64,000 bases of DNA from Strix aluco (Eukaryota; Chordata; Aves; Strigiformes; Strigidae). Made by a program: the position numbers and the translations under genes. The stretch spans positions 3,968,001 through 4,032,000 of the forward strand of contig NC_133955.1 in assembly GCF_031877795.1 (NCBI RefSeq), written 5' to 3'. The notes under the pieces are model-generated. The model made no database searches, had not been told where the DNA came from, and saw only the letters and a program-made list of their open reading frames with translations. The first letter of the stretch is position 1. The number at the start of each line of letters is the position of its first letter. This document shows positions 1 to 62,149 of the stretch, piece by piece.

Positions 1-9488
<9,488 letters not shown>

Positions 9489-39388: not shown

Positions 39389-42300
39389 AAGGAAAATAGA
39401 TGAAAAAACTTGCCTGAGGCAGCACTTCTGCAGGCCCAGGGTCACCAGTAACAGCCTGACACGGTGTATCTGGGGGTAACCAAAGCTTCTGAAGCCTTAC
39501 AAGCCAGTATTAACTGCGCTTGTAAACTTCCTAAGGACAGTCTGTTCCCTAAATGGCTTCAAGCCAGGAGCGATGGTGAGAGCGAAGCCCAGATTTCCCA
39601 GTGTCCTGATCCTTCTGTGTGTGTTTGGAGAATAAACTATTTCTCAATACCGTAACAGGCCTTGCAGTATCAAGGATACGTATGTGCTTGCTTTCAAGTG
39701 CGTGCCTAAGACTCAGTGAAGTTATTAAGTGCTGCAGGTTGAGCACATTTTGGAGTGGAGCTCACAGTGTCTTCACCAGGTAGTAAGTACAGAATGTCAC
39801 AGCAAGTAAATAGCGTTAGGGATTTGTGTTCAAGGCCGCTTAGGTTTTGATCTCAAGCTTGAGGAAGATGAGTCTTGTTAGCAGTACTGTGCAAGACAGA
39901 CATGTTCTGAATGGGATATGGAAGCCTGCTTTTAAAACATCTGGCTTCCCATGTCAAAACCCTTCTCTTTCTCTACACAGAGTAAGATTTGAGTAGGACC
40001 CTGTCCTCTGTGGCTGTGAGTCATTGAAGTCCAAATAAGAGGAGGGAACAGCTGAAAGTTACCATTGCTTGCATCTAAAAAGTAACTACTTGACGTGCTG
40101 GGGTTTTGAATGCCTTTAATTTGCAAACTCTAGCTGCTTGTTAGTTTTGCTTGTTGTGTCACCTTGCCTTGAAAAGAGGTGATGGTGCTCACAGGTGTTA
40201 GAAACAGCTAAGGCTTCAAAAGCTTGTACTGGGTATGAAAAGCTAATGACCAAAATGGCTCTGAAGGTCATCTGTGGAAGACCTTGATTTATCTCCTCCT
40301 TAAAAAAAGGGAGAAACTGTGCCCTAGGGATGGAGTGTGTTTGAGACTTGCCTGCTACTAGCTCTCTCTGGTTTAGAATGACTGGGATGCGTGTGCGTGT
40401 TGGTAGGTAATGTCTCACAAGACAGTAAATACTGTGCTGGAGTCCCTGATGCTGTATCAGAAGTAGCAGATCTCAGTGATGCAAAACACTAGACTGGCAC
40501 AAACTGATCGTGATGGTTCAGGAAATGAAATATGAGGAGAAAACTTAATCCCAATTAATTTTTTGCAGGTTTTGGTATTTTAAACTTAAATTGCATTCTG
40601 ATTAGGTTCTCCACTGCTCATTTGCAACTTTTTTATAGTTCCTCTTTTCTTTGTTCTGCCCATAGCAAAAAAAAAAAATCTTACTGCATGTCACCACCCT
40701 TCTTACATGTACTTTCACTTGGTAGCTCTGGATTTGATTTTTTTTTTTTTTTTTGCCTCAGATGTCAGTATGAGAACTTTGCCTTAGCTCTGCTCTTCCA
40801 CTGGACCTTTACTTAGTATTTACTTTGAGAACTCATATCTCACTTACTCTGAGTGATAGTGATTGAATTCAGATCTCCTTCCTGATATTAAAATTCTGAG
40901 GAACGAGAGTCAGACATTTTGGGGATTTGAAAACCTGAATGGTATCAGATACCAATTTTATACAGCAAGTTGTGGCATTTGTACAGCCTCCGATGTAGCT
41001 CCTCTCTGCATGATTCAAACTAAGCCTTTTTCCTCCAGGATTGGAAACAAGGAGAATTCAAACTGTTTCCTCAGCTGTGGCAGGTTTATGAAGAAGGACT
41101 GCATTTAGTTCCCTAAACACCAGCCTGCTTTTAGGATCACAAAATGGAGGGGATCCAGGCTGGTCTTTCCTACAGAGTAGGAACAAGGCAAGTTCCAGAA
41201 GGACCCAGTGTTCCTGCAACTGATTTGGCAGTTGATTTGTTTGATCCTAAGAGCAGCATGTCTTTTATGGATTTCATTCTCCAGAGCCTTGCTTATCCCC
41301 AGTGTAACTACTGGCTTCACAGGAGTGATGTTGGGATGGACTGATCACGTATCATATGTTTTGTTTTGGTTTTAGTAGATACTTCTGTGACTGTGTTTGT
41401 TTCTTCCAGTGAGAAAGAGAGTGTTCATCGTGGTCTCCAGCATTTGCTGTTCCTTTGTTTTTGACTGACTGTAGTCAAAAGGAAAATATGGTGCTCCACA
41501 ATGATACTGTTGGAATTACAGGCAACCAGCAGCTTACACGGTCCAAAGAGAAATGCAGACTGAGGAGCACTTCCAGGCATATTTTGAAAGAAAACTGTCC
41601 TCCACCTTGGGTGGAGAACCACAGATCCACCAAGAGAACAGACAGCTACAATACAGGTGAGTTCTATGCCAGGAATTTATCAGGTGTAAAGAAACTAAGG
41701 AGACTCTTCAAGCCCGTGTAAAAAAAAAAGTGCTAACTCTTCCACAGCTGGTAATTAAAATGCTGATCTGCACTGATTGGTAACCAAAGCAGAACACCCA
41801 GTTACAACAACTCACCTGAAGTGTGCAAGGTCAGTGCAGCACTGCACTATCAAAGTTGCTGTTTGCAATCTGCAGAAGTGTCTGTTCACTTCAGGACTAT
41901 GAGCGTGTGAGGGATATATGCCCTGTAACGAGAAACTGTCAATAGTTGTAGTTCCCTTCAGAGCCTCCCTCAGCCCAGCTGTCAGACACAGGCTTTCATT
42001 TGCTTTTTTCTGATTTGTGCCTTTTGCTACTTTTATTTCTTAAATTTCAAGAGCCTTTTTCTGTTCCCTCTTAGCTGAGGACGTGGGAAGTTGCACAATG
42101 GTGTGACCAAACTGCCTTGGCATTATTTTGGAGCTATGTTCCGACGTTCTTTGAGGAGAATGGGTGAGGCTAGGGTAGTGATAAGGCATTAATGCTTCCA
42201 CAGCCTCATTTTCCCATGTGCCAGAATTATCTTTTGGGCCTTATACTAAGAGTAGAAGCATGTCTCCTGCCAGAGGAGCCCTGCAGGCACACCAGAAGGC

Positions 42301-44152
42301 AGTCTTTTTTGGCAGTAGGATGACTTCTGGTGTCCTTCCAGCAAGGCAAATATAATAAAAAATAGGAAGCCAGTTCATCAGCTCCCCTTTTAGTTTTGTT
42401 TGACTTATGAATATCTCCGTTTTCTTTCTGAATCTCTTTTTGGATCTGGAGTGGACTGTCAATGGTCATGGCCGTGTCTACTCTACAAAGGTCTCCTAAA
42501 AAAGTAAATACGAAATCTCTGATTCATAATTTATCTGGGCTTTGTTTCAGCATGTATACTGAATGTCTACTGAAACTTAAACTCTTGTTTTGAGACCATG
42601 GCAGGACTTGAGACTCAAGTCTAGCTATGGGTGAGGTTCCACAAGGTGTGGTGAGCTAATCTAACAGCTTGCTGCTGCCAGAAGAGACAGGACCACACAG
42701 GGAAAGGAAAGGAGGGGAGCCAGACCTCTCTCTTTCTGTTTAACTACCTCTTACATCAGCTCAGCTATGTGTGGGACTGCAGCCTAAAACTATAGGTCAT
42801 GTCTAACTTACGCTGCTCTAAAGTAATTTCCTGGTGATAAGTGAAGGCAAGTGGAGCCATATTTGCTATTTGAGTTGCTATTGTGTTTTCTAGTTTTCAT
42901 TCACCATGAAGACCTGTCATCAAGATTAATTTCTGTAATAGTGAGATCCTTTAGATTGTGCAATAGCCTCTGTTCCAGCGCTGTCTTTTTATATATTAAA
43001 AGAAAATAAAATGTAAGAAGGGGATTGGATGAAGTTCTGGAGTCAGCAAAACAAAATTACTTGATGGAAAGGGTTGAATTGTGTGTAATTATGACATGTG
43101 ATCTAGAGTTAACAGTCTGTCCACCCAGAAACACCTGGTGCAATAAAATAAGTCTTGCCCAGAGATCAAAGGGAGAATTTTGCTGTAAAGTCATAGCTAA
43201 TATTATTGGAAACTTTATTATTGCACTTGATGCTTAATAATATCTCTTTATTTCCTCCCCCAACTCACCATTTAAGAACCATCTCGGCCTTGATTCCTCA
43301 TACTCTTTTCTCTGTTTCTTTTCCACTTCCCTATCTCATGTTTTCTCTCTTCCCCATTTTTTTCCACTTGACAGCCCAGTGTGTAATCACCTGGGACAAT
43401 AAAATGATGGAAGGGGACTCAGCTCTGTGATGTTAACTGGGGTCAGTTCCCACAGCCACTGTTCAGGGCTGCCAGAAGCCTCGGGTAGACACTACATCAC
43501 TTACATTTGGTTTGTAAGTAGAAAATCACCAACTTTGCCAGGGGATTAAAAAGGGGAAGAAGGAGCACAGGGCCGTGGGGTTAGTCAGAGTTTACCTACT
43601 GGAAATTCTGATTCAAAAACATACACGCAAAATAAATCATGTGGGTCAAGTCCTGCTTGCATCCCCTTATTAAATAACGTAATACAGGAAACATTTGACT
43701 GTTTTGCGGGAAGTGGGATAGGTTTGTCTATTTTTCCCCCCCCAGATGTAGTGTGTGTTTGTTTTTCTTCTAGATCAGAATAGGAGGAATCAAAATACCA
43801 TCTCCTATTTGTCTGCGGTGTTAATGAGGTCAAGTAATTGATGCATTCAGCGCTCTGGGCTCGGTCGCTGACAGGCTATCATGTGAATGGCACACAGAGT
43901 ATTTGTGATTCATCTGAATGGAATGCAAAGGCACGGGGGGGGTGGGGGGGTGGGGGGGGGTGCCTGTGTAGGATTCATGTTATGTGCCAGCTGGATCTGC
44001 AGCAGGCTAACCATCGCCTGTGCGTGGTACGTGGTGCCTGCAGAGAGCTGACCGGAGCAGTGTGGCTTTGCTGCCTGCAGAGCATGAGGCCGCTGCAGAG
44101 ATGGAGACTGTAAAAGGCATTGTGTATAGCTCAGCTATCTGATTCTTTTCAG
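39389..44152. other. Stretch between CR1 copy A and first recognised SLC26A8 exon
   Basis: About 4.8 kb of mixed sequence. It should contain the 5' UTR and N-terminal exon(s) of SLC26A8 if they persist, but none could be assigned. A G-rich tract lies at 43935-43961. A weak candidate exon (41488-41656) is discussed under findings. Confidence 0.5.
43935..43961. repeat. G-rich tract with quadruplex potential
   Basis: Three or more runs of 7-10 G separated by single T bases, about 190 bases before the first recognised SLC26A8 exon. Confidence 0.85.
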
Positions 44153-44291
44153 CTTCTCCTGGGGAGGTTTGGAAAGATCATAATCAAGATGTTCCCTGTC
44201 CTGAACTGGCTGTTTTTATATCAGTTCAGAGAATGGATCTTGAGGGGTCTACATGCAGGCCTAAGTGTTGGGATGTTTCAGATTCCTCAAG
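44153..44291 (+). pseudogene. SLC26A8: SLC26A8 exon: N-terminal end of transport core, open
   Basis: The exon encodes KMFPVLNWLFLYQFREWIL and on to GLSVGMFQIPQ, the first SLC26 signature region. It is intact, with acceptor TTTTCAG and donor GTAGGC. Confidence 0.88.
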
Positions 44292-44857
44292 GTAGGCAGA
44301 GAGAAAAAAACACTCCAGCTTCCTTTTGTATATCATGGTTTTCATCATCTATCTCCTGTGTGTGTTTCTGTTCTTTCTAATGTCATCAGGTTATGCGAGA
44401 ACTTTAACCTTGGAAGTTCCTTAAATCATTAACCTATTTATTTGCATATTTGCAGAACTTCTTTTCTATAATAAGATGTTACATGGTATAATTTCAAGGA
44501 CAGGACACTACTCAAAATGTAAACTAATATCAGCATTTTCCTATATTGCAAACAAAATAACATGGGCTTTAAAATCCACCTTGCAAAATCAGGTCTGTTA
44601 GATACTCACATGCATAGCCACCCTGCTAATAGGTTGCCTAAATGAAGAGTAGTTCTGGTTTGTTGTCTAATTTCCAGTTAGCAAGGGCCTGTTGTTGTAA
44701 AACAGCATTGGCTTTTGGCCTGGCTTTATCAGGTCCTGAATGGGGATTTTCATAAAGGTTGTCAGGTTTTCATCAGCAAAATTTTACTTAAAAATAGTAA
44801 TCAAAGATAGAGAGCCTTCCCAGTCCGCTTGATTTTAGGAACATTTTTGCTTTCCAG

Positions 44858-44974
44858 GGCTTTTAGGAGTTTGGCTGACCAGGTTACCTCTGCCAAATAT
44901 CAATGGCTTCCTTTCTGCATTCTGCTGCTCGATAACATATGTTATATTTGGGACTTCACATCATATCTCAATTG
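44858..44974 (+). pseudogene. SLC26A8: SLC26A8 exon: early transmembrane segments, open
   Basis: The exon encodes LLGVWLTRLPLPNINGFLSA and then FCCSITYVIFGTSHHISI. It is intact, 117 bp, and phases fit both neighbours. Confidence 0.88.
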
Positions 44975-45863
44975 GTGAGGTTTATTTTGTACTGTGAAAT
45001 GTTTCTGCAGGATTTAGAGATTATTCAGTGCTGCTTCAAAAAACTGGCAAGATGTCCTACCTATTTCATCTAATAGGCAGATATTACTTAGGTGAGAATC
45101 CAGACCCCCACGTTCTCAGTTCGTTGTTGTTCCACTTCTGCTGCTGATCCATGGTGAGAATTTCACCAAGTCAGTCAAGTTTCAGGTGCTTTGAACCCCC
45201 CGAGGATGGGAGCCAGCACGGCTCCTGTGTGACAGACACCAGTGCAAAGGAGAGGCTGGAGTGTCATGGAGGCGTCTCCTACGTAAAGGACCAGTGCAAG
45301 CTGCTTCACATTCACCTCCAGGATCTTACTGTGAATTATGATTTGGCTCCTGGTCTTCTCCATGCAGTTTCCATGACTGAACTGGTGATGGGTTTATGTT
45401 CTTAATGTGTTCAGCAGCTGCCTTATTAAAATGCTGTTTACATGTGAGAAGGCCCTTCACATTATCATAATGAGTGGGTATGTGGAGCTCTGGCCTCTTA
45501 GGTAAATTGGCAGTTCTTTCCCTGACTGTGTTTTTCAGCCTTTCTGGCAGCTCATTGCAATGCATCCATTTTTTGTGCTTTACATTAAAATCTTTTTGTT
45601 GTGCATCTGCCGAACTGAAGACTTCACTCGTAAAATAGTAGGAATATGAAATTTTCAGACAAGACTTTGAAAACTTTAGGTACTTACTCAGAAACAGTAA
45701 AAATGAATTATATATGTGGATTGTTAATATGAATGAAAATAGACTGTCTCATACTGCACAGACTGATGGTGGGGGGAAGAGATGGATGTGTGGTTTTAAG
45801 ACACGACTTTGTTGCAACATCTCATGCAGTTTCATTTTCTGTTCTCTGTTCTGTTGGTTCCAG

Positions 45864-46039
45864 GCTCATTCAGCATCCTAAATATGGTGGTGATAGACAT
45901 TCTGAAGACTCTTACTTTGAACCAAACATTTTCCACTAATGGTTCACTGGACAATTTCTCAGACCCTACACTTAGGAAAGGGTACATGGAGGCCTTGACG
46001 CTTACCGCCTCAATAACATTTTTGACTGGCATCATTCAG
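45864..46039 (+). pseudogene. SLC26A8: SLC26A8 exon: extracellular loop with N-glycosylation sites, open
   Basis: The exon starts (G)SFSILNMVVIDILKTL and ends TASITFLTGIIQ. Three NxT/S sequons (NQT, NGS, NFS) lie between, as expected for an outside loop. It is 176 bp and intact. Confidence 0.88.
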
Positions 46040-46522
46040 GTAGAAGATGAATCTATTTTACATTCTTAATGATGTATCCTGACATGCATTCTTCATACAA
46101 GTGTAAGAATTGGTACTGCTTACATACTCTTACCACAAATACTAAGCTACATTTGAATACGTGTTGTGCAAAGTGGGACATGAAGGTCTGTCTCTTCCTC
46201 TCATGCTGTCTGAAAAAGGTATGACAGGTGAAGATTCATGTGTCTATGATTAATATGTGTAAAGTAAATTATTTACACTGACCAGTTCTGCAATATGTTG
46301 ACCCTTAGGTAGTCCTGCATAACTGCACACACTTGATGTAAAGTGCTCCTATTTTGGTTTGGCAGTGTCTTACTTAATTGTGCATAATGAAAATAGCATG
46401 TTCCAATAACTATCCATCATGTATGGCAGTGAAGAATCACGCTCTTCAAATATGGAAACAAGAAGGACAGGGTTAGACATGGATAATTTTATCACATCTC
46501 ACTTCTTGTTTGTTCCATACAG

Positions 46523-46686
46523 TTGCTGCTGAGGTTGCTTTTGCCTGGGGTTTGTAACAACATACATGCCGAAGGCTCCTCAGTGCTCACCTCACCGCAG
46601 CAGCATTGCATGTCGTTGGATCACAGTTTAGCTTTATCTTTGACGTCATGCTTGACTTCCATAAGGGACCCCTGGGCATTTTCTAT
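46523..46686 (+). pseudogene. SLC26A8: SLC26A8 exon with two frameshifts
   Basis: The protein similarity jumps between frames: LLLRLL, then LGFVTTYMPK, then LLSAHLTAAALHVVGSQF and on to GPLGIFY. The exon is 164 bp where the family needs 165, which fits +1 then -2. Splice sites remain. Confidence 0.8.
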
Positions 46687-47397
46687 GTGAGTAAATTCAT
46701 TGTTAGTCAAAGAAATGCATGCTTTTTGGAGGGGAAAGAAAAGAGCAGCTTCAGAAATTGAAGGCAATTTCAATCTAAGTCAGTTGCTAAGGGATATTTG
46801 TGCAAGTCTCAGCTGTGGTTTACTTCACCTTCCTGTTGTCTTGAACAATGTATGGAGCTTATTGTCTGACATGCAAGAAGAAAAGTCTGTGTGCATATTT
46901 TTAATTACTTATGTAGTGCTATACTATATTTTCAGCATGCCTACAATTGTAGCGGAGCAAAGGTTAAAGGAAAAGGTACTTTTCTCCTCAATAGATCATC
47001 GTGGGCAAGCTGTTGGGTACACAGGATCTTTATCATACCTGACAAAGAAGCAGCAGACTCCAAGCTAAAGACAAGTTAAAGCTAATTCATCCTAATTTAC
47101 TTTAGTAATGTCAATCAGACAACTTGAGGAAAAGGTAGTGTAGAAGAGAGAAGAATGACAGCACTAGATCTGAGCTATTCGTGGCAGTGATTTCTCTGCA
47201 GATACCAATAGACGAGAGAGATTTTTCAAATACTGTTTTTCTCTTAGCATCCCTCTTCTTCTAACTGAAGATACCACCATAGCAGAAAGGTTGAGTTCAA
47301 GTGTCAGGGCAACCTATGTCAGTCTCCTGGAATACAGAAATAGTTGTAGTATCTGACTCTGATCCTTTCTGATGATTTTTTTTTTTTTTTTTTCCAG

Positions 47398-47547
47398 AAT
47401 CTATTTCGTTTCCTCCTGGTTCTCCCAGAGGCTAATGCCACCAGCATATTGCAATTTTTGCTTGGCATGGCCGTACTACGAGTCAATACATCTATCATGA
47501 TAACTTATAAACATAGTCCTAATGCATTTCCTATGGAACTTCTCTTG
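47398..47547 (+). pseudogene. SLC26A8: SLC26A8 exon: transmembrane segments, open
   Basis: The exon is 150 bp, 50 codons, the expected length. It includes PEANATSILQFLLGMAVLRV and ends FPMELLL before GTAAGT. Confidence 0.87.
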
Positions 47548-47781
47548 GTAAGTGATCTCCAAAATGCCATCGCGATAATTGAGCTAACAGAGAGTATAAT
47601 ATACTTTATTTCAAAAAACATGTAACGTATTACTTCAAGATGCTGTTATATTTACACACTGAATCTGTGGTTAAGTCCTTTAAATATTCCTGCAAGATTA
47701 ACTGTCTTCAGATGTATTGTATACAGTTTCAGGAACAAATGCTGTATAATCTCTGGTATTGCTTCTTGTTTTCTTTCCCAG

Positions 47782-47863
47782 ATTATCACAGTCATCATTA
47801 TTTCTAATTACATTCATCATCATGCTGAATCAGTAGTGCTGTGGTCAGTAAGATTCCTCAGAG
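47782..47863 (+). pseudogene. SLC26A8: SLC26A8 exon with net -1 frameshift
   Basis: The exon starts IITVIIISN in one frame but must end SKIPQ(R) in another to join the next exon. It is 82 bp where 83 would be in phase. Confidence 0.7.
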
Positions 47864-48205
47864 GTTAGTTTTCTATGCTGTTTTTGAGGTTGTACTTTTG
47901 AGATACGAAAGAGATGTTTCAGCCTGTTCTTGGAATCTGGCATGGGCTGACTTTTACTGGGAAGTACAGCTAGAAGAATAACTCTTCAAGAATTTTAATT
48001 ACATCACCATTTCTGAGAATATACAGAATTCAAACTGCAGTTTTCTGTGTTAGATTCAGGTTTTATTAGCACACAGAGGAAGGAATTTGGATTTTTTTTG
48101 TGAGGTGGATTGAGAGCATCTCCAGTGGGGTGCTGGATGCCTCTGATGATGATCCTGGGTTCAGAGTTACTGAACTGGCCTAAATTTATCTGCTCTCTCC
48201 TGTAG

Positions 48206-48353
48206 ATTTGTGCCTCCTACACTGCCAGATTTATCAAACCTGAGCAAGATCATACTGTATGCCTTCTCCCTTGCTATTGTAAGCTATTTCCTTCTTGGTT
48301 TTGCTGGGGAGAGATATGCTTCACTTCACAACTACAGTATTGCCAGCAATCAG
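48206..48353 (+). pseudogene. SLC26A8: SLC26A8 exon: transmembrane segment, open
   Basis: The exon encodes FVPPTLPDLSNLSKIILYAF and on to ERYASLHNYSIASNQ, a close match to mammalian SLC26A8. It is intact. Confidence 0.9.
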
Positions 48354-49279
48354 GTGAGAACAAAACTACAATACTTCCTAGGCCAAGAAGCAAGCTAAAC
48401 TCAACTTGCAAAGCCACTACCTACCTGCCAGTGGTAGAAACGCAAGGACAGAGTGAATATGCCACGTGATGGTTTTGTAGCAACTTGTTACCCTTTCCTA
48501 TTGCAAGTGTATGTTATAAGGCAATAACGTGAAGGCCAAAACACGGCCTTCTTTGACCAGGAGGCCTTTGTATATTCCCAGTGATTGGGATGAACCACAC
48601 ACACACAGAGTGCTGCAACTGATCGCTGAGGACCATTGCTGTCATGAATCCATGAGACTATAAAAGCATGATAAATGAAGAGCTGAATTTGTAAATGGCC
48701 AGAGCAGCTGTAGTTCTTTTCTGTATGTGGCTACTATCCCAGTGTATGGATTCTCTGCCCAGAGCAATTGCTCTGAGAGGCTTTTAAGCTAAAACTGTGT
48801 TAGTAAGTAAAACTGTGCTAGAGTTAGTAAGCATTAGGTGTTTTGTACTACCCCATGTTTAGCTTGTTGTGATGGCTTTGGATCTTTACTGGAATGGAAC
48901 TGAGCCAGTAAGGAAGCTGCCTCTGGGGATACAATATAAAGTGAATGTCTTTTCCACTCAGCTTTTGTCGAGGTGTACTCTGGCTGTGTACTCAGATTTG
49001 CCATGTGTTAGCTTGAAAGTTAGTGCTTCTTAGCTTTGAGGTTCTAAGTGGATTTCTTTGAAGGAAGGTTCATGAGATCCTCAGATGTGAAAACTGTATG
49101 CCTTTTAAGAGAGCTCATTTAACCACCAGAGACCTTGCTTTCCAGGAGGTTTCCTGACCTTAGCAATACAGATGAGCAACCAGCAAGTGTGAGCAAAAGG
49201 AAAGGAATCCCTGCTACGCTACTTCTATGAAGGTAAGTCATTCGTTTGGGGTTTGCTTCCTCCTGTTTCTGTTTTACAG

Positions 49280-49393
49280 GAGCCAGTAACTGTGGGGCTA
49301 TGGAATACTGGCAGCTCATTTTTCAAAAGCTTTGTTGTCAGCTGTGCTATTTCTGGAACTGTCATTCAAGAGAAGACAGGTGGAAGAACACAG
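49280..49393 (+). pseudogene. SLC26A8: SLC26A8 exon, open
   Basis: The exon is 38 codons: EPVTVGLWNTGSSFFKSFV and on to VIQEKTGGRTQ. It corresponds to the SLC26 motif ending in (Q/D)x(S/T)GG. It is intact. Confidence 0.88.
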
Positions 49394-50183
49394 GTGAGCT
49401 GGGCTGGATTTTTTTTAAGCTTCCAAACTCTCATCTAAAATCACTGTATACTGAGTATAGGCTGACACCTAATCGAAACAATTTGTGAAATATAAAGTTA
49501 CATACCCAGGCAACATGAATTCAGATCCCCTCTCTGTGGATGTTATACTACGTACTACACTTACAGCACGTGATATGCCACGAAGGAAGCCAGGATCCTG
49601 TGGGGAGAATAGGATATGTTGTTCATGTAGTTTAAAATTATTTTAGTGAATATGCTGAAAAGCCAAATGGAAAATTGTTCATGCACCCTTAATTCTGCCA
49701 CTTCTTCCTAACTCTTGAGTACTTGACATCATGATCTTTTTTTTTCCAGGGGGCAAAGAGGGTGTAATGTGTAATAATAGTATGTAAGAATGTTTTTATA
49801 ATACCTCTTGACTGAATGTCTGTATATGCTTTACTGCAGCGTAGAAATAATTTTGTTTAATAAAGAGTGTATTTCGAAGTCTGACTTGCAAGAGAAGTAT
49901 CTTATTACTCAGGTGAAATTATCAAACCCAAATCATTTGTTGCATTGTTCTGTTGTGCCTAAGAATAGTCCATTTAGGCCAAATTTATATCTACAGAAAA
50001 CTCTTCCATCTTGAGTATACTAGAATTTGTACCATGAGTTGCAGCATACCTGTGACCTTTGTTAATTGTCCCCTGGTTATTTTTCCCAGTCAGTGGTGTT
50101 ACATGGGCCACAGCTACTTGTTTAGAGAGGACGAGGGAGTAGATGGTTCTCCCGGGCCTCTCTAATAAAGTGTTTCTGTTCAG

Positions 50184-50250
50184 TTAGCAGCAGCGATTGG
50201 AGCTGGTGATTGCACTGAAACTAGGATGCTTTTTCCAGATGATACCTAAT
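50184..50250 (+). pseudogene. SLC26A8: SLC26A8 exon with 11-bp frameshifting deletion
   Basis: The exon reads LAAAIGAG in the first frame, then ALKLGCFFQMIPN in another. About five codons (VMLLL-like) are missing. It is 67 bp instead of 78. Both splice sites are kept. Confidence 0.82.
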
Positions 50251-51315
50251 GTAAGTGAACTTGAAGTAGTTATGGCAGCAGCCTACTTACTTCCTGAGCA
50301 TAAAATGAAGATTTTTTTCTAAGCATAATATCTAGATTTTTCTGGGACAGTTAGGGATTATATCATGCTCTAGAGTTAATTGTTTTCAGGCATGGACCAA
50401 ACCAAAACAATGACTTTAAGCTCTCCTAAATTCAGCAGGCTAACATATTAGGTAATGAATATTGCATCTCTCTCCCATGTCTCACTGAGCAGTACAAGCT
50501 AAAATTCATTGGCTAAAACTGGATTGAAATTTCACTGACAGCCTCTATAATTTAAACAGCTTGGTCTTTGAGGTTTATTTTAAAACCATATGGACCCCTA
50601 AACTGCCTTCTGTGGATTTTGCATTGCCAGTGCAATAAACATAAACATTTTGTTATCATAGATTATTCAGAGTACTCAGTTTTCCACTTTTCCCTTAATT
50701 TTTTATCTAGACTTTTTTTTTTTTCTGTAAGTTTTCTTAGGGAACCACTGACAGAGCATTACTTCCTGATTTTTTTCCTGGCCTCTTTGTAAGATGGGAG
50801 AATTAATCCCTTTCCCAAAACTAGCTGACAAAACAGAATTTAACCATCTACTTCCTTTCAGTCTCCTTTTCTTTGCTAAGAGGCTATTTCAACAAATGGT
50901 GTCAAAGAACTTCCTAAATCTGGCAACGAACTACCCATGCTAATTGAAACCATTCTTTGAAACAGCAGCTCTTAATTCTGTAGATGGTGTTGGCCTTTCT
51001 CCTAGTGCTGCAGGAGGCACAGGCATTCACTGAAGAACACTGTAATGGAAACTACACATAACAGTTCGAGAGGAAGTCCAGTTGTATTGGCAGAAGTGAT
51101 TGTGAAATCAAACAAGAAGCGACATGCTAGTTTCATGTTGGTTTGCAGATCAGAGGAGAACCGTTATACGTAGCTATAAAAATTATGGAAATAAAGGTAT
51201 TATAAGATTTTCATTTCAAGCAGTTTGTCTGTGATGGATATCTGTTCCTTAGCATGTTTGTGGTTGCAAACAAAAAATAACAAAATAATAGATGCTGGTT
51301 TTCTGATTTGCACAG

Positions 51316-51397
51316 GGTATACTGGCTGCTATTGTGGTATTTAACATGATCCCTTTTCTTGAAAAATTTCTGGACATCCCCATCCTGTGGAGACGGG
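51316..51397 (+). pseudogene. SLC26A8: SLC26A8 exon: late transmembrane segment, open
   Basis: The exon encodes GILAAIVVFNMIPFLEKFL and on to ILWRR, ending in phase 1 before GTAAGT. It is intact. Confidence 0.87.
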
Positions 51398-51932
51398 GTA
51401 AGTATCATTTTGTAAGTGACAAAAAAAAACCATCTAGGATTTGGAATGTTTCTTAAAGGGAGAAATGTTTTGAGAGGGCAAGGCAAAGCAGTGGCCATTC
51501 CCTAGGAAAGCGATCCTTTGAAATAGCCGCTGAAACAAGTGTATTGAAATCTCTTTAAATCAATTTTCAATTAGTTCTAATTATTGTTGTTGCTTCCCAC
51601 ATCCCTTAAGAAGGAAATTGTCTAGCTGCCAGCTAGGGCCACATTCTCATTTCAACTCTTGTGCAGGATTTCTCATAAAGACCCCCAATATGATGTGGTT
51701 TCATCCTGATAATTGAAGGCCTGTTAAAAAGTCTGGAGATTTGAACTGTGATTTGTGATCCTTGTTTGTGGCTACGTCCAGGACTGGGTTGGTCTAGATG
51801 TGCCAGCAAAGCTTTTCACGTATTACCATTTCTAGCCTTTTATATTGTCTGCAGTTTACAAATGCTGGGGCTGAGTTGGAGGTCATTTTGCATCTTTTTA
51901 TGGCTCATGTTCTCTCTGTCTCTCGTTCAAAG

Positions 51933-52025
51933 GTTATTTGGCTTGCAGCTTTTGCTGCAGTGATTTGTTGGTTTAGTGATCGCCATGGGATTTACGTTCT
52001 TCATAATCACCATTAGGTCACACAG
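51933..52025 (+). pseudogene. SLC26A8: SLC26A8 exon, shortened and frameshifted
   Basis: The exon reads VIWLAAFAAVIC, then after a gap GLVIAMGFTFFIITIRSH in another frame. The expected start (QYDx) and an internal LGLD-like stretch are missing. It is about 93 bp against about 121 expected. Confidence 0.75.
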
Positions 52026-53477
52026 GTACTTGTAAATTTTAAAACAAAATACAAGTTTTTCTTAGAGTTGATGCTTTAGAGATAGTTATATGTACAACAA
52101 TTAAATAGGTGTTTCATGTGTGTAAGCACTTCAGTCAGGTCATTCTGGAGTCTCTCTAATGCTATCCCAAACCAGTAATCCCTTCGAGTTTATGGGCTCT
52201 GCATTGGTCCCTTCTGCAGGTGTACCATGCTACTGAAGACAGCTTATTATGGAGTAGGCATCAGCCAGGAGAGGTGATCTGTGTACACACACTTGCATAG
52301 GGATGAAATGAGATATTGTGCCTTTATTTCAAATACATTCCTCAGTCTTCACTGCCATTTACCAAGTTGCTTTATCTTCTCCGTAAACTCCGTTCGTGAT
52401 AGGGGAGGGAGGTTACGTCAGGCACACATTACTCAGTTTATTAGCAGCTAATCCAAACAGGAAAATCATTCATAAATACAAGCCATACCTCATGAGATTT
52501 ACCATAATAGGGAGGTGCTTGTCTGAGTAGACTGAAGCCTGGAAAGAGGTAGGAAATAACTCAGTTGCTGTAAATATCGAACCACTTGTGATCTGATCCA
52601 GAGTGGCTCTGAAAGAATGAATACCTTCAGGAAGAATTTCAGTTGCTGTCCAAAACTCACAGCATTACTTCTGCTCAGAGTTAAGTTCTTGGGTTTGCCT
52701 TGGGACTTCATGAGCATTGTGAAAGGGCATTTCTGCAGCCACTTCTCCATTAAGTATCCCTGTTGTCCGTACTACCTTCAGGATATATAACTGCTTATCA
52801 GTTTCCTACCAGTGAGAGCATTATGCTGACAACATTCAAAAAAGCATGGGAAGTTATCTGCAAAGAGATTGCTTTGAATAGAGTGTCTTGACAAAAATTT
52901 TCCATACACCAGGGCCCGCTGCCTTCCAGTTCTCCAGCAACAAGCCAGCCAGTCCCATGTTTATTCCACCCATGCCCTGAACTGACCAGAACCTGTCCCA
53001 AAACCATCCAGCACCATTAGCAAAGCCCAGTACCCAAACCAAGATATTCTCTTTCAAGGCAAAACCCTGCATTAATGGTGCTACACGAGCTCTGGATCAG
53101 ACCTCACCTCTGAGCAGCCAGCTTTAAGCACAAGTCACCGCTGCCTCCACCAGACTGTGTAGATGTATCTTTGAGGAGAGCTGTGGGGAGACAGAGAGGG
53201 AACGTGCTTTCCAGCATAATAACAATCATCCAAGTGTTCCAGAGCTAGAAATGGGATATTATCCATTCTTGAGGACACCACTGTAGCTGAAGGTTGTGCT
53301 TGTGTACTGCTCCCCTACTCAAAGAACCCTAATTATGAGTGAATAACTTTTTGTACTCGCACCCTGTAAGTTACAGTTGGTGTATCCAGTGAAGAGGAGA
53401 GAAATGGAGATCAAGCTTTTGGGAACAAATGGTTTTTCTCTGTTCTCTGTGAAAACCTAATAAACATCTTGTTTCAG

Positions 53478-53553
53478 AATGAAGATGGTGGTGCTGGGAC
53501 AGATTCCAAACATGAATATTTATAGAAGTTTATCCGTCTACAGAGCCCTAAGA
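53478..53553 (+). pseudogene. SLC26A8: SLC26A8 exon after transport core, donor lost
   Basis: The exon reads MKMVVLGQIPNMNIYRSLSV and then YRA. Acceptor TTTCAG is present. The expected GT donor after YRE is replaced by gagccctaagagg, so normal splicing looks impossible. Confidence 0.78.
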
Positions 53554-54382
53554 GGAAACAAAAAACAAATGTTCCATCTCTTTCTGTAATCCAGCTCCTT
53601 CCCTTAAATGCCTGGGGGGACCATTCAGACTCAGTTCATTTGATTCAAAACTTTGAAAACTGAAGAATGCTAAAGTATCTGTGGTGAAGCGATTCGGATA
53701 CCTGGCTCAGCCTGCCCGGGCCCTGTGGAGCTCCTTGTGTCAATCTGTGTGATTGTGTCGAACGGTGGAAGCTGCACTGCTGGCACTTCCAGAGCTGTTT
53801 GGCGTTTTTTGCTGACCTGCTTTTCTCAGTCTGGTTTTGTCCACTCTACCTATGTTTTCACAATAACAACTGTGCATGTGCTAGACTGACTCATAGGTTC
53901 TCCCAATGATGGGAAAATAGGTAGGGCACGGGCCTTTTTAACACATTATTTTCAAGTCCTGCACCAGTTAGTGCAGTAGCAGAAAGCTTTACCTTTGCCA
54001 CATGGGTACCTTCCCAGTGCTACGCTGATGGATTGGAAAAAAATGGAATAATATAAGGACAAGGTTAGTAAGACAAAGGTATAGTGTATGTTTCCTGTAA
54101 TGAGCATCGAAAATAATTTCCCTTACTTTACATTAGAGCAGCCAGCTGCCATCTGTGATGGATGTGCTGGAGGTATGTTTTTAATTGCAAGAGAAGCAGA
54201 TTAGATTATGGTAATTAGGTCCATGCTGCCAATGCCCCTACCAGTATGCAGTGTAGTCAACAATGTGACCAGAGAAACTCTGTCCTTAGGGTAAGACCTT
54301 GCAGACTAAACATAGACAGTCAGGAGGGGAAAAATAGCTCCTGCTAGGTACAGCCCTCACAGATACAACTTTTGTTTTACAG

Positions 54383-54475
54383 GCAAGGGAGATTGAAAGT
54401 ATCAAAATCTTCCAGTGCTGTTCTTCCATCTCTTCCGCAAACATGAATCACTTCAAAACCTATTTGCTATGCAAG
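54383..54475 (+). pseudogene. SLC26A8: SLC26A8 exon: start of STAS domain, open
   Basis: The exon reads AREIESIKIFQCCSSISSAN and on to KTYLLCK. It corresponds to the first STAS strand, and donor GTAAAT is present. Confidence 0.85.
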
Positions 54476-54564
54476 GTAAATGCCACTTTCTCAGTCAGCC
54501 GAAGTTTCTAAGAGCCCTGCATTGGGGAGATAAAACCCCTAATAAAACTGCCTTTCTGTTTCAG

Positions 54565-54702
54565 ATGGACATGAAAGCAGTGCCTCTAGATGAAAGTGAA
54601 ATGAAGGCTTTAATTTCACTTAGTCTGTCTGACACTGCAGTGGAAGGAAAAGATCTTAAACGCCCTTGTGTCTGTGATCCACCTCCACCACCACCACCTA
54701 GG
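54565..54702 (+). pseudogene. SLC26A8: SLC26A8 exon: STAS intervening sequence, open
   Basis: The exon is 46 codons: MDMKAVPLDESEMKALISL and on to a proline run before R. This is the variable insert inside the SLC26 STAS domain. The donor is GTCAGC. Confidence 0.82.
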
Positions 54703-54819
54703 GTCAGCTTTAAAAGTATATTTATCTAGGCTGTTTGTTTGAGGTGCCTGGTTTTATGTTACTGAGGACAATGTTCTTAACTTGCCACACTGAAAAGGCT
54801 GTAAATGTTTATATAAAGG

Positions 54820-54835
54820 ATATATATATATATAT
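54820..54835. repeat. (TA)n microsatellite
   Basis: A TA dinucleotide run in the SLC26A8 intron after the proline-run exon. Confidence 0.85.
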
Positions 54836-55918
54836 TTGCTGTTTGAAAATAAGCAAACATTGCCACTGTATTTCTTTACGCATGCTTTATGTGATAGAGC
54901 AACAGTAGCTCAGCTTACTGGGTGAATTAACCAGCAGTTGAAGTATTCAACATACTCTCTCCTCAGTTGAAAGAATGATTTTTGTCAGGTTCTTTGGTAG
55001 GGATTTTCTTCTTTTTCCCCACTGAAGTGAGAGAATTCCCTTGCTTATGAGGAATTTGTTCCTGCCAATACTGCCAAATGCAAGTACAAAATACCTCAAA
55101 GGCAACTACGATTATCATGATTAGAGAGTTTCTCTTCTTTACTATAATTGGCCGCTGTGCATCTTCTAGAATCATTCTTGTTCCTTTTTATCTGAATTTT
55201 CTGAATTGTCTTAGACAATGTATGAAGGGAACTTCAGGGAATGGACTGTCTTCAGAAGTGTTTTGTAAAAGCCCTTGTATGAGAAACAGGTTGACAGTGG
55301 TTTGGAAAACGTATGTGGCACCGAGGTGCTTAGGGAGTTGAAGTGATAGACAATGCAACGTTATCTTCTAAAGTACAAAAAATGCAGAGAGTGACTTTAC
55401 CTTTCTTGCGTTATAAAAATTAAAGAACACATTGGGAACTATTGTGAAAGAAAAATTGGTTAAATTGGTCCTTTCTGTGACCAGCTGCCATACAAGAATG
55501 TAGATGAATCAAAGTTCTGCAGAACTCAGCCAGTAAGGGTCAGCTTAGTGCTGCTGAGAGAGGCAATGGCCATAGACAATTTTTTTGTTTTCTTCTTTTC
55601 TTTCCTGAAAGGTAGAAGTAACAAATCGGATTCCAGTATCACAGGCCATGTCCAGGTGTGGAAGAGTGAGGTACCACTGTACTATCTGGTGGCTGAAGGC
55701 ACTCTGCTAACCACATCTGAGACTTGCCTAAGTCACTTGCTGCTTTGCATGCTCTTGTGGGTTCGTGCTATATTTAGTGTTATTTCACATATGTTTTTTA
55801 CGACGAGAGAAAAAATATCATCTGATTTACAGTACTGTCTTACTTGCAGCAAAAATATTTTCCACCTCCTGGGCCCAATTCTTCCATCTGCTGATGCATT
55901 CTCCATTTTCCATCTTAG

Positions 55919-56273
55919 ATACCATCTACAGAGGAGAGCAGAACATCACACAGACAGCAATTCCTCGTCATCTTCAGTTAATTTGGTACATTGGTCAAAG
56001 CGTGGAGACAAGCTCAGCTCTGGGATGCTCTGGGCGGGAGCAGCCGATGCACAGTGTGCATCCCCAGGCTTTAACACGGGACTTACGACTGAGAAGAACA
56101 AGGACGAAGGGAAAAGAGCTTGCCTTTCACCAGGCTCTGCAACAGATAATTCCTCGGTACAGATAGATCAGGAGGAACAGCTGATGCATTTGCCATCTCC
56201 AGTTCACACCGTTATTTTAGTCTTCAGCATGGTGCAATTAGGGGATTTGGTAGGTTCAGTGTAACTGCAACAG
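55919..56273 (+). pseudogene. SLC26A8: SLC26A8 exon: STAS core with frameshift and premature TAA
   Basis: The exon starts IPSTEE in the phase required by the previous exon, then similarity moves to SVNLVHWSKRG in another frame. Near the end VHTVILVFSMV matches the STAS strand VHTIILDFSMV of mammals. A TAA at 56262-56264 sits four codons before the donor. Confidence 0.82.
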
Positions 56274-56929
56274 GTAAGTACCCTAACTGCACATAAATGT
56301 GAAACCTGAAGTTTACCCAATGGCTTATGTTTCTAGTTAGCCAAAAATGCCTTGCTACGTAACAACACTCACATCTTTCAGTTGACTAAGGGAGCTATCG
56401 AGTTTCAGAAATTAATAAATTCCGATAAAACCACTTTTTTTAAAAAACAAAAGCCCCACTATCCACACAAAAGACATGCAAAAACCTGTCATCCATTGTC
56501 ACCAGTTCTAGAGTCATGTAAACTAAAAGCACATTTATAAAAGATCTATTTTTTTTCCATTTTGGCTGTTTTTTTTTTTTCTTCTAGCTGGACACTTTAA
56601 AAAAATGCTCTTCTTTAAAAGTGTCGGATGTAAAACTCCCCGCAGTCTTCTAGAGTGATTTTGCTGTTATTGCTGACTGCCTAATTAGCCTTTCCTTTGA
56701 AGTATGCCTTGAACTTTTAAATCTCCAAGTGGGGATCCTAGCCAATGGAGACATAAATTTAGCAAAAATAAATTTCATGTAGCTGTGCTGCTTGGAAAGA
56801 TACAGTTCCAGATGGATTCTTAGTCAGCTCCCACAAACTCTATAGCTCAACTTCAAAAGATTTTTGTTTAATAACAGGTTAGACTAACACCTATTGGGAA
56901 TAATTGTGGACTGAGCTGTTGTCCCTGAA

Positions 56930-57050
56930 ATCCTTGAAGATTTATTCGCCACCCACTGAATGACCTTCCCATTGGGAAAGGGGGATAAAGTCAAAGTTTC
57001 TCCACATTCTTTCCAACCCCGTATTCTGAAATTCTGTGATTCTCTGAAAT
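56930..57050 (+). mobile_element. Probable old CR1 3' fragment
   Basis: The sequence ends with ttctttccaaccccgtattc followed by an attctgtgattctc tail, the typical CR1 3' end. The rest is too diverged to delimit well. Confidence 0.5.
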
Positions 57051-57623
57051 AATGAGTTTCGTTGCCTTTTTAAAAAAAAAATTAACTACTTTGAGATATT
57101 TTTGTTACAAAGGGTTAGGCATTGAGAAAATGGTGAGAATCTATCACCTTTAAAATCTGATTCCTTTAACACTAAGTTGATATATCTGAAAATGTTGGAC
57201 ATGAAAATTGAGACAACCAGAATTACAGGTCACGCTTGAAAATAGGGGTTCCTATTCTCGTTTACACGTGGGCATGGCATCTGCATACGGAGAGATGTTT
57301 CAAGTTAGTCTGTTCCTGTGAGAACTTTTTGTTTTAAGTGAAGAGATAGCACTGTGTGCTGCGTAGTGAACTGCAGGAGGGCCAGCACGGGGTCTGGCCG
57401 TGACCTGCCCTGGCTCTGGAGTCAGCATTCATTAACATCCCGGACATCTTGGCTGTTCAGTGCTGAACTAGAAAACAGGATCGGAGATAGTGGAATAAGG
57501 GTTTTCTTCAGAGATAAAACCCTGCAAGGGAGGGTTTGTTTCCCTATTTATGTTTTACCTCCTAGTTCACTTGTTTAATGCAGAATTGCTCTAATTCCTG
57601 CATGGAATTAATTCTTTGCACAG

Positions 57624-57676
57624 ATCATTCATGTTTCCCAATCCTGGCATTACAGCCCTCACAGCTGGTTGTCACT
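57624..57676 (+). pseudogene. SLC26A8: SLC26A8 exon: STAS strand, frameshifted
   Basis: The exon starts (I)IH and then reads FPNPGITALTAGCH in another frame, matching the mammalian stretch ending IAGCH. It is 53 bp instead of 55, so two bases are missing. Confidence 0.75.
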
Positions 57677-57802
57677 GTGAGTATAGTATTTGTTTACTAA
57701 TATTGACTTATCTCCAAGGATAAGTTTTAAACTTAGAGTGTTTTAGCAGTAGTACTTGGTGTGATTTTGCTGCTTTATTTATTTTCCCCCATTTTTTTAT
57801 AG

Positions 57803-57978
57803 CCGCTGTGATAGCAGACTTTGAGAAGAATGATTTCTTTGACAGCTGGGTCACCAAAGAAAGGTTCTTTCTAACTCTTCATGATGCTGTGCTGGCTGCT
57901 TTGGGCAAACATCAAAGCCCAGATGAGCTAGAACCTGCTGCGCAAGGGTCTGAAGAATCACTAGCTGAACAGCACAAG
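57803..57978 (+). pseudogene. SLC26A8: SLC26A8 exon: C-terminal STAS helix, open
   Basis: The exon reads AVIADFEKNDFFDSWVTKE and on to FLTLHDAVLAALGKH, the typical end of an SLC26 STAS domain. It is intact. Confidence 0.88.
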
Positions 57979-59102
57979 GTAGAACATTTAGCTTTAGAAC
58001 ATTTAAGCCCTCACGTTGTTAAATTATCCTGTCGGTAACTTAAACCTTGTCATGTGGCTGAGGAAATAGGGCAGAGCAGATGCTCTTTTGAATTCTCCAG
58101 TTTTTCACAGGTACTTGCCTTTTTTGCAATGGATCCATAATCCAATTTGTTTCTTTGAGTCCTGTGTTCCTGTTTGGGGAAAGGCATCTTTGTGTGCAGG
58201 CTGGAAAGGCATCCAGCTGAGTTTTGCGGCAGGGAATGACTTAGTTGCATTTTAAATTGTTTCCATTTCTCCGACAGAGCAAGGACCCTGCCAGGGCAGA
58301 GCAAAAGCTCCAAGTTTTTTATTTCCAGAGGTCACTGCACCAGGTCTCTTGGGGCTGATGGGGGAAATGAAGGACAGTGCTAGCTTGATTGCCTGAAGTT
58401 TATGCACATGCTCTTTCTGTCAGTACTCTGCAATAATTTTTAAGCTCACTGGCTGTCGCAGCCAAGTTTGAATAGGGCAGACGGTTGCAAGTTCCAGGAA
58501 AAGCCCTTGTTCTGAGTAGAAGATTCCAGTACTTGCCCCACCTAGGGAAAGAGCCCAGCCTTGACTAATCATCCTGTGCATATCGCCGGGCTGGGGTCCT
58601 ATAGCTGAAGGAGGTGAGAATGAAGGCAAAAACCTATGCAAATCTGTAGGTAAACAGGGTTCTGCTGCTCATGGAACAACTTGTTTAACTCTCTTATCTT
58701 GACATTGTACAGAATAGTCTGATGCAAGGGTATTGACCTTCTGGACTCTCTCCTCCCCATAGAAAAAAACTTCAAAGAATGAAGGTCACCGTTTATATTC
58801 ACCAATCTCCCTTTAATGGACGTGGCGGGGAGGGTTGGGAGCAGCTGCTGGGCAGGAGGTGATGATGATTCCCCACTTCGAGATGAGTGTGCAGGGCTGG
58901 GTGTGCAGACGGGACCCACGGCAGCTCGGTGACGTCGGCTTTGGCGGTCCCTGCTAGCTCCTTTCCTCGGGGATTCGGACTGTCCCGTGCTCCCACGCCA
59001 GCATGGCCCTCTCGCTGCTCACATGGTGTTGCCTTGGCACGGGAACTGCTCTTGACTGGCTCAACAGATCGGCCACCCTCGGCTTTTTTGTGTACATTTC
59101 AG

Positions 59103-59576
59103 GAAAGAAGTTTGCTCTTGAAGAAGAAGAAAGATTTTTTTTCTCTGCAAAGAACTCTGACAACGAACTTCTGCATGAAGAGCCAATATCAGATATCTCA
59201 CGCTCAGCCCAGAATAAAGCAGAGCCAAGCTCTCTCCAGCAGTACGATACTCCACCCCTTCAATCGGATATTCAGGACCCAGGCTGGGGGAAGAGATGGA
59301 AGTATACCAGCAATCCCTGAATTACAACTGTTGGGGAACTGGGATTTCAGTAGAGAGGAGAAAGGTACAGTTAAGAACAGTTCTGGTGATTCTTATCAGC
59401 CTTCGATCCTCTTTTTATGTTTTCTGTTCCAGAGTTATAAAATAGACAGCCTGCCTAATGCTTCCAGTAATTCTGTTGTTCTAAACAAAAAGCAATATTT
59501 ATGTTACTGCTTTCAAGCATTTTCAAATAGATATGATACCCAGCAATGCCAAAAGCACAGAAATGTCAATGTATAA
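59103..59576 (+). pseudogene. SLC26A8: Possible last SLC26A8 exon (C-terminal tail)
   Basis: It follows acceptor acatttcag. Two overlapping frames are open. One reads EEEERFFFSAKNSDNELLHE and ends SNP-stop at 59320; it resembles an acidic C-terminal tail. The other, in phase with the previous exon, is basic and runs to 59576. Assignment rests on position and composition only. Confidence 0.4.
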
Positions 59577-59779
59577 GATAATTCCTAGTTTTGTAGATAA
59601 TTCTAGCAAATTATTTGTGCTTGTTTTCCGAAATTTCCGTAGAAGTTTAATGTCCTGATTTAGTGTTTCTTATATATTTATTGCTTGCTAGTAAGTAAAA
59701 TTAATCTGCCATATTTCAACAGATTACATGCAGGCAGTTTCATTATTTTCAGATGTATTTAGAATGATGTGAAGCTTTA

Positions 59780-59785
59780 AATAAA
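59780..59785 (+). terminator. Candidate SLC26A8 polyadenylation signal AATAAA
   Basis: An AATAAA lies about 200-460 bases after the candidate stop codons of the last exon. Confidence 0.4.
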
Positions 59786-62149
59786 ACATTTTGTTATTAC
59801 TCTTCAACACTTTGAAGTTGATATTGTCTGCACTAATATAACATGGTCTATTATTTCTTCCTCAGTCCCTTTCTAATCCACCAGAACTAAATCCCAGTAA
59901 ACAATATAATAATTTTTTCAGGTTTTTATAGTCCTTTACTGAAATAGTGAAGAATGGAGGAATGTATTCACTGTGTTCTGAAAAGCCAGGAAAATTGTAG
60001 ACTTAGATACAGTTAGCACTTGAGAAAACAATCAACTTAGTTATATTTTCTTTAGATCAGCTGTAGAGTTTGATGCAATAACATCAGTACAGAGGTGTGA
60101 GCTGGGATTCCACTGAAAGGAGAAACATTTAACTACACCAGCAATACACATCACAAGGCTTCACCATGCCGTCGTCTGGAGGATTATCCCATGGCACAAA
60201 CTGCCGAGTGTGCAGAGCTGCAGGTGAATTAATTTCCGATGGGTGGCCAGCACTGTGTATATACACCATTCAGACCCCATTTTAGGGCAAAGCTTGGATT
60301 TAAATGATGGATCCTTTGTGTATAGATCCTGTGCTCTGGGCTAAATTTGTTAACATGTGAACAGCTCTAACTTTTGCTGCTGGGCATCGTGTGGTTTCTG
60401 GATGTGCAGTAACAGCAAAGTGGCTCCTCTGAATTCTGCTGCTCCTGGCTGCTAAATTTTAGCAATAATATGATGGCTAATAGAAATATTAATATTAAAC
60501 TATCTGTAATGTATTCCAGTGATTTCTTCTAATCTTTTTTTCATTTCTTCCCTTTACGTTTTTACTGATTCCAAGCAGTTTCTAGAGGGAAGCCACAGTA
60601 CTGCATTCGTAAACTGCAGTGGTAAAGGATTTTAGTGAGCATTACTGCATAGAGTTGCTTACTGTAGAGGAAACTGAGTCCTGGAACCCTCATACCTTTT
60701 GGATTGAAGGACAGGAAAAACTGAAAGCTCAAATGGTATTGAGTAATTCTCAAACCACATATGCTTCCCTGCATTGTTTTGGACAGTGGCTTCACGCCAA
60801 GCTCCTCTCAGCTCTGTTCAAAACAGAGTAACACAAAACCCATGAAAAGCATAGCTCTAATTTCCAGATTCTGTTGGCTCTCCTACGGCAGCCTTGATTT
60901 AAGATGAAATGGCATTCCTAGCTGTTGGCACCATCAAAAGTCTCCATTGCAAACTTAGGGTTTTTTTTGGCTTGTTCAGCAAAGTTCCAAATCTTTCCTT
61001 CCTACCCCCATGACTTGCAGAGTTGAGCACCAGGGGACAACTCAGACGTCAGTATGTTAGCGTTCAAATTATGGGTATTCGTGTTGCAAAACAAATATCT
61101 TGCTGAGAGGAAGTCCAGACAATCCTGATCTTTTTCCCTTATAGCTGTGCAGTGCCATAACTCTGCTCCCGCGTACATACACAAGGCTTCTGTGTTCAGC
61201 CAAGCACAGAGCCCTGGACCTGGGCTGTGAAGTGACAAAGCACGTACTTTATGGCCAAGGACTCCACCTATACCTCTAAAAAGCCACAGAAGTCAGAGTT
61301 CAAAGGCCTGTCTGTAATCATGTGTTTGCAGGCAGCTTGACGTTCTCACCTGACCTAGTTGTAACAACTACAGTTGTTTTGTGCACACAGCAACTTTTTC
61401 ATGTCCTTCCCAGCTAGTGTGATGCCACAATGTTTTCCTAGCAGGGCATGCTGCAGAAACCCAGCCAGCCCTCCCTCTGCACTGAATTAGAGGATACAGA
61501 TCCCCCGACATGCACATTATCATCGCAGATGTTGCAAAGTGTATATAACCACCCCTAACCCTGTTGTCAGTTTATTAACTCTGGTGCATAAACGGCTGTA
61601 GAAGACATAAAGCAGCTGAGGAACCTTGGGAGTCGTGCAGAGCGTGGCAGAAGCAGTTCTTGGGGCAGTGCACTGCGGTGTGTCACGCCGCGCAGGAAGC
61701 TATGAGGAAGGACCAGATAAACCAGTTACATGTGGGCATAGTTCGGGGGCATTTATTCTGCTTTAAAAATTAGTGCCAGCCTGGTTGTGGAAAAATTAAT
61801 GTATCTTGGCTTAGGCCTGGCTCAGCAACCTTTTGAGGGTGCTACCCCAGACTGTGTTTTTCTATCCCAAATTTGGAGAGGCGTGGAAGAAACTTGGCAA
61901 GAGTGAGGCTGCTCAGTAATATCTTGCTTCTGTAGGAACCTCTGCATGAGGCTCCTCGTTCAGACTGTGGTGGCAGCTACTGTTCGAGGGAACGTGACAC
62001 CTGACTCCACGCTTGCTTCGCTGTGTGGCTTTCCAAATCCGGCCACGTGTCGTCTTTGATGTCCTCACGTGAAGAAACCCAGCCTAGGCCAGTGGAAGTG
62101 TGAAACAGAGCGGTGGTCACGGCAGGTGTGAGCACACACCTTGCTAGAG
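59786..62149. other. Intergenic stretch between SLC26A8 and CR1 copy B
   Basis: About 2.4 kb of moderately AT-rich sequence without a recognisable gene, RNA or mobile element. Confidence 0.6.

Follow-up and report, generated by a model that had tools for sequence, protein, structure and literature searches.

Very probable loss of the sperm transporter gene SLC26A8 (TAT1) by decay in place between MAPK14 and SRPK1 in a bird genome

The window analyzed in this study, i.e., the whole 64-kb stretch of DNA under investigation, is located on a contig (C25) of a 1.41 Gb bird genome assembly and was found by spliced alignment to harbor the multi-exon SLC26A8 (TAT1) locus on the plus strand between the genes MAPK14 and SRPK1. 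In all likelihood, this locus represents a unitary pseudogene that decayed in place. Nine well-supported disruptions were identified in it, namely seven insertions or deletions (indels) distributed over six exons, a lost splice donor, and a TAA stop codon, and, as judged from the sequence, production of the transporter by this gene has very probably ceased.

Results

Alignment of the human SLC26A8 protein by means of a spliced, frameshift-aware protein-to-DNA aligner written for this analysis yielded 18 exons between positions 41520 and 57909, with identities at 341 of the 746 aligned residues (46%). The score obtained (1140) compares with null values of 64 for the minus strand, 64 for the reversed sequence, and 68 for another part of the window, and among the only three queries compared at the locus, it exceeded those of the bird's own SLC26A9 (459) and of human SLC26A2 (341). 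The genes are arranged in the order MAPK13-MAPK14-SLC26A8-SRPK1, with MAPK13 and MAPK14 encoded on the minus strand and SLC26A8 on the plus strand; the same order is described for vertebrates including the chicken (PMC3202601). Of five short exon pieces tested, two exceeded the cut-off of the Pfam family Sulfate_transp (PF00916) with 53.8 and 50.2 bits, and the other three gave no Pfam match. Exons 13–18 align with the human STAS region, and both pieces tested from there were among those without a Pfam match. For one exon piece, the best match in the PDB was prestin, an SLC26 member. Since introns are retained and nearly all splice sites of the 18 exons are canonical, the locus is not a retrocopy. 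An earlier note on this DNA had described a recently lost SLC26A8 gene with about eight lesions, most exons being open and the splice sites well matched. The mammalian query recovered the locus and confirmed its lesions, and the number given was right, nine of them being well supported. The note had, however, placed the start of the locus at 44153 and thereby missed a 5′ exon at approximately 41520–41656, 2.6 kb further upstream.

This exon 1 (41520–41656, RQPAAYTVQREMQTEEHFQAYFERK...) carries the 5′ coding part, position 41520 being the start of a local alignment and thus an unproven exon border. The stretch just before 41520 contains no in-frame ATG, and an upstream exon could supply the start codon. 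Reading on from exon 1 without repair, the frame runs through 55 codons of the alignment until it encounters a stop codon at 44181 in exon 2. When exons 1–12 are spliced, the longest frame beginning with ATG comprises 220 amino acids and departs from SLC26 sequence in exon 5.

In terms of sequence, the strongest evidence for the predicted lesions is the comparison of exon lengths with the bird's SLC26A9 gene, which lies on the same contig at a distance of approximately 2.5 Mb. In the PDB, this gene matches SLC26A9 best (1.2e-125), with prestin following as the next family (1.6e-68), which backs its name. Its exon borders derive from the alignment with the human SLC26A8 sequence, most of them falling on canonical splice sites. 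Fourteen exons could be compared. In six of these, the lengths differ by a number that is not a multiple of three, SLC26A8 always being the shorter one, and these are exactly the six frameshifted exons. Exon 2 (44153–44291) measures 139 nt versus 140 nt in SLC26A9 and is shifted near 44163, whereas exon 5 (46523–46686; 164 versus 165 nt) contains two breaks (+1 at 46532 and −2 at 46578). Further indels were detected in exon 7 (47782–47863; 82 versus 83 nt; −1 near 47830), in exon 10 encoding part of the transmembrane domain (50184–50250; 67 versus 78 nt; net −11 nt near 50208), in exon 12 (51933–52025; 93 versus 107 nt; net −14 nt near 51963), and in exon 17 (57624–57676; 53 versus 55 nt; −2 near 57633).

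The remaining eight exons are either equal in length (six exons) or differ by multiples of three (two exons). Equal lengths were determined for exon 4 (45864–46039; 176 nt), exon 8 (48206–48353; 148 nt), exon 9 (49280–49393; 114 nt), exon 11 (51316–51411; 96 nt), and exon 14 (54383–54475; 93 nt), all of which are intact, as well as for exon 13 (53478–53547; 70 nt), the end of which is inferred. For exon 14, the canonical acceptor at 54383 was preferred to the start reported by the aligner (54388). The two exons differing by multiples of three, exon 3 (44858–44974; 117 versus 111 nt) and exon 6 (47398–47547; 150 versus 153 nt), are intact as well.

Two further disruptions complete the set. Following exon 13, GCC is continued by CTAAGA at 53548, where a donor resembling GTAAGA would be expected, and the GT donor is thus lost. 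Exon 16 (55919–56273) contains an in-frame TAA at 56262–56264 within the STAS region. A doubtful extra base at 55934 in the same exon, called as +1, was dropped from the count because an alternative acceptor (ctacag followed by AGG) avoids the frameshift. Exon 15 (54565–54702; 138 nt) and exon 18 (57803–57978), which reaches the end of the STAS region, are open. Further downstream, a probable last exon was recognized by eye at 59103–59320, the C-terminus not being conserved. An AATAAA motif on the same strand (59780–59785) is located near the probable 3′ end.

Other queries led to part of the same lesions. With the bird SLC26A9 protein, the frameshifts at 46532, 46578, 47830, and 51963 were recovered. 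The human SLC26A2 sequence recovered those at 46532 and 47830, shifted the second break of exon 5 to 46572, and again broke exon 12 at 51963; the exon 13 donor failed, and exon 10 was misplaced. In the reciprocal approach, human SLC26A8 aligned to the SLC26A9 locus (approximately 31% identity) resulted in seven calls. One of them concerns the exon 15 donor, where the aligner skipped a canonical site, four fall within an insert that is not conserved, and the remaining two lie in the C-terminal tail. No frameshift or stop was called by this query in the transmembrane exons of SLC26A9 or in its STAS exons 17–18.

The quality of the assembly was evaluated on neighboring and unlinked genes. MAPK14 (14310–38057, minus strand, 12 exons) and MAPK13 (1–9488, minus strand, 10 exons inside the window, running off its left edge) served as controls and proved to be free of lesions in all six alignments performed, including four with mismatched queries (MAPK1 and MAPK13 on MAPK14; MAPK14 and MAPK1 on MAPK13; 47–68% identity). 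On the other side of the locus, the first two coding exons of SRPK1 (63706–63887, plus strand) also showed no lesion, only 25 residues being aligned there. Elsewhere in the assembly, RAG1 features an open frame of 1036 codons. It is exceedingly unlikely that SLC26A8 is in fact intact and looks broken owing to errors of sequencing or assembly. Such errors might account for the deletion in exon 2, which sits in a GGGG run, and all lesions are known from the assembled sequence alone. However, the other indels lie outside runs of at least four equal bases (their exact deletion points being uncertain), and a single gene has accumulated nine changes of varied kinds, among them two larger net losses (11 and 14 nt) and a donor altered by a base substitution, whereas MAPK14, MAPK13, the core exons of SLC26A9, and RAG1 are intact in the same assembly. 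As an explanation for the whole set of lesions, assembly error was rejected in view of the kinase, SLC26A9, and RAG1 controls, and the argument of the earlier note that the intact kinase neighbors speak against poor assembly was borne out.

A second, intact copy of SLC26A8 was searched for in the entire 1.41 Gb assembly at the protein and DNA levels and was not found in the assembled sequence. The protein search with 314 residues of the bird SLC26A8 gave 23 matches, seven of them at the locus itself; the 16 matches at other loci do not exceed 44% identity. Fourteen of these 16 loci also match the human SLC26A2 sequence (tblastn), and the other two adjoin SLC26 genes; probably, all 16 are SLC26 paralogues. 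The DNA search with the region 41480–46700 returned the locus itself and one match of 35 bases. Among the paralogues, an SLC26A2 copy was observed on contig C13 (at approximately 12.55 Mb; 76% to human SLC26A2 over its long exon), and a third, partial SLC26A2 match adjoins it. A second open SLC26A2-like gene (55%) is located on C41 (at approximately 60.49 Mb), a contig of 97 Mb that stands behind the contigs ordered by size and is possibly Z.

Some further features of the window and the assembly were recorded. A repeat that resembles the 3′ portion of a CR1 retroposon occurs in two copies (39026–39403 and 62132–62395), the open frames of which are almost identical (GVVGRWNGLPRAGGESPSLEGLKSRVDPALRDLVELGTVRVRFMVGLEELQG). 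The second copy is followed by the tandem repeat GATTCCGTGATTCT (62364–62392). The contigs C1–C6 are chromosome-like in size, with 173, 138, 133, 132, and 89 Mb, after which the size falls to 45 Mb. The gene RAG1 is located on the 4.6 Mb contig C31, which hints at an unusual rearrangement, its chicken counterpart residing on chromosome 5. CFTR and RB1, both located on chromosome 1 in the chicken, were found on separate contigs (C5 and C2, respectively), suggesting a split chromosome 1. By eye, MYC exon 3 showed no extra codon relative to chicken MYC, and RAG1 showed an N-terminal shortening by five residues relative to human RAG1; the four-residue insertion of core Passeroidea was not seen in this comparison. 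Fission of chromosome 1 is considered characteristic of passerines (PMC5271350) and also occurs in some doves (PMC7349364). A codon insertion in MYC is reported for Passerida (PMC3917694), to which this bird therefore probably does not belong. The RAG1 shortening by five residues is given for birds with the exception of some fowl, ducks, and palaeognaths (PMC2803162).

Discussion

The results presented above characterize the SLC26A8 locus as a gene that very likely decayed at its original position. Several points weigh against this interpretation and have to be considered. The evidence originates from one genome assembly of one individual. The number of lesions called varied with the penalty applied (13 at −10, 9 at −16, 4 at −25, 3 at −40, and 2 at −60), harsher penalties leading the aligner to hide most lesions in gaps or odd splices. 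The bird SLC26A9 query called no lesion in exons 2, 10, 13, 16, and 17, its alignment beginning after the exon 2 break and bridging the other uncalled lesions by alternative splice sites or gaps. In the tail, where conservation is poor, this query added a call of its own at 57904. According to RNA data from duck gonads, Slc26a8 is expressed and related to males (PMC9643717), and SLC26A8 is named beside MAPK14 in a study of the chicken (PMC6508745). Finally, the pathway argument given below and the functional consequence of the loss are inferences.

Because the lesion count varies with the penalty, the exon lengths in comparison to SLC26A9 were relied on as the main evidence. The run at a penalty of −16 took a cryptic donor after exon 13, so that the exon 13 donor lesion is absent from its list. 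Regarding the other birds, the chicken and duck literature only names SLC26A8 (PMC6508745, PMC9643717, and PMC12046372). Since the gene is reported in duck and chicken sources, which speaks against a bird-wide loss, it cannot simply be taken as dispensable in every bird.

The early stop, together with the need to avoid many exons at once, makes a working transporter very unlikely. Solved SLC26 transporters retain both the transmembrane and the STAS domains. The locus might nevertheless yield a functional product, be it an RNA or a protein that is shortened or lacks skipped exons, given that most exons are open, that nearly all splice sites are canonical, and that the disrupted exons 5 and 10 are in phase 0 at both ends, their single skipping keeping the frame. 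We consider this very improbable, as it would require every one of exons 2, 5, 7, 10, 12, 13, 16, and 17 to be bypassed, by which much of the transmembrane domain would be gone and the STAS domain broken. Lesions private to the individual or polymorphic in the species, as might be envisaged with a single assembly at hand, have a next to negligible probability, because nine independent lesions on one haplotype would hardly be expected of a young segregating variant.

Concerning the age of the loss, a single stop was counted in approximately 2,508 nt of mended reading frame, including the last exon in a guessed frame. If nonsense changes make up 3.0% of all substitutions occurring at random, this count translates into 0.013 substitutions per site, with 95% limits of 0.0003–0.073. 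Substitution rates of 2e-9 to 3e-9 per site and year, and a slower one of 1.5e-9, were used for dating. The upper limit for the age of the loss is approximately 24–37 million years (My) at 3e-9 to 2e-9 and approximately 49 My at 1.5e-9, assuming neutral decay after a single inactivation and ignoring indels. Selection on SLC26A8 would then have been relaxed in the lineage of this bird, the first break having probably occurred late, at most roughly 24–37 My ago at the assumed rates, and the later lesions would have accumulated neutrally.

Alternatively, the loss could be old and common to a large group of birds. This appears doubtful. In its favor, seven frame-breaking indels are a fair number, and CatSper and sNHE were lost in nearly all birds surveyed (PMC6660944). 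On the other hand, the single in-frame stop has to be set against 7.6–11.4 stops expected after 50 My at 2–3e-9 (probability of at most one stop, 0.004 to 0.0001) or 5.7 at 1.5e-9 (probability 0.02), and SLC26A8 is treated as a gene in the chicken (PMC6508745) and duck (PMC9643717) sources. To call the decay of SLC26A8 recent relative to the bird radiation is therefore reasonable. Of the earlier claim of a recent loss, the loss itself is strongly supported by the nine lesions, whereas its recency follows only from a rough count of stops and assumed rates.

In the mouse, SLC26A8 is needed for sperm motility, its loss resulting in immotile sperm, annulus defects, and failed capacitation signalling; moreover, the protein stimulates CFTR, and variants of the gene are linked to asthenozoospermia in men (PMC6813192). 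Its essential role in motility, as put forward in the earlier note, accordingly holds for the mouse. In one survey of birds, sNHE was kept by none, CatSper only by two palaeognaths, and soluble adenylyl cyclase (sAC) in a patchy manner (PMC6660944). The most likely cause of the decay would be that the sperm of this bird are independent of the mammalian capacitation route via bicarbonate, sAC, and CatSper, in which SLC26A8 works with CFTR. The prior loss of CatSper and sNHE in nearly all surveyed birds may have left SLC26A8 more easily dispensable. The R domain of CFTR is present and open in the assembly, indicating that SLC26A8 decayed without loss of CFTR. The C-terminal domain of CATSPERB had no match in the assembly, which agrees with the loss of CatSper in birds but, with this being the only CatSper subunit searched and with no positive control, proves nothing.

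A different cause, namely that the loss of SLC26A8 follows the loss of the sperm annulus, where the protein sits, is regarded as improbable. SLC26A8 is found at the annulus of mouse and human sperm (PMC6813192), and, according to a review, this structure is absent in passerine sperm and prominent in non-passerines (PMC8812575). If this bird were a passerine, the gene and the structure might have vanished together; the features pointing to its order are mixed, the split of chromosome 1 resembling passerines and MYC arguing against Passerida. If the lineage were annulus-less, or paralleled such a lineage, the decay of SLC26A8 would be the trace left in the genome by altered sperm architecture, and independent cases would be expected in other birds lacking the annulus. 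A bird that breeds without SLC26A8 would represent a natural knockout, in which it could be tested whether the bicarbonate/sAC/CatSper route, the annulus, or both account for the essential role of this gene in mammals.

A search of the open-licence literature revealed no report of an SLC26A8 loss in birds among the matches listed, which does not show that it is unpublished. Unitary pseudogenes are a known type of event, and SLC26A8 looks like another sperm gene lost in a bird lineage. Because birds are already known to lack CatSper and sNHE, the loss is notable rather than revolutionary.

In comparison with mammalian SLC26A8/TAT1, the bird locus has the syntenic position and the exon structure in common, at 46% identity, but the reading frame of the bird copy is disrupted in six of its exons, to which the stop and the lost donor are added. 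Similar to the losses of CatSper and sNHE in birds, the present case concerns a capacitation ion-transport gene that decayed or was lost; however, those losses cover nearly all surveyed birds (PMC6660944), whereas that of SLC26A8 was seen in one genome, and the gene is still reported in chicken and duck sources. The losses of WDR93 and CFAP46 in birds (PMC10445033) likewise represent an independent, lineage-specific inactivation by gene-disrupting changes, in that case of ciliary genes; these are different genes, and their inactivation is backed by approximately 500 vertebrate genomes and by transcripts, in contrast to the one genome that documents the decay of SLC26A8.

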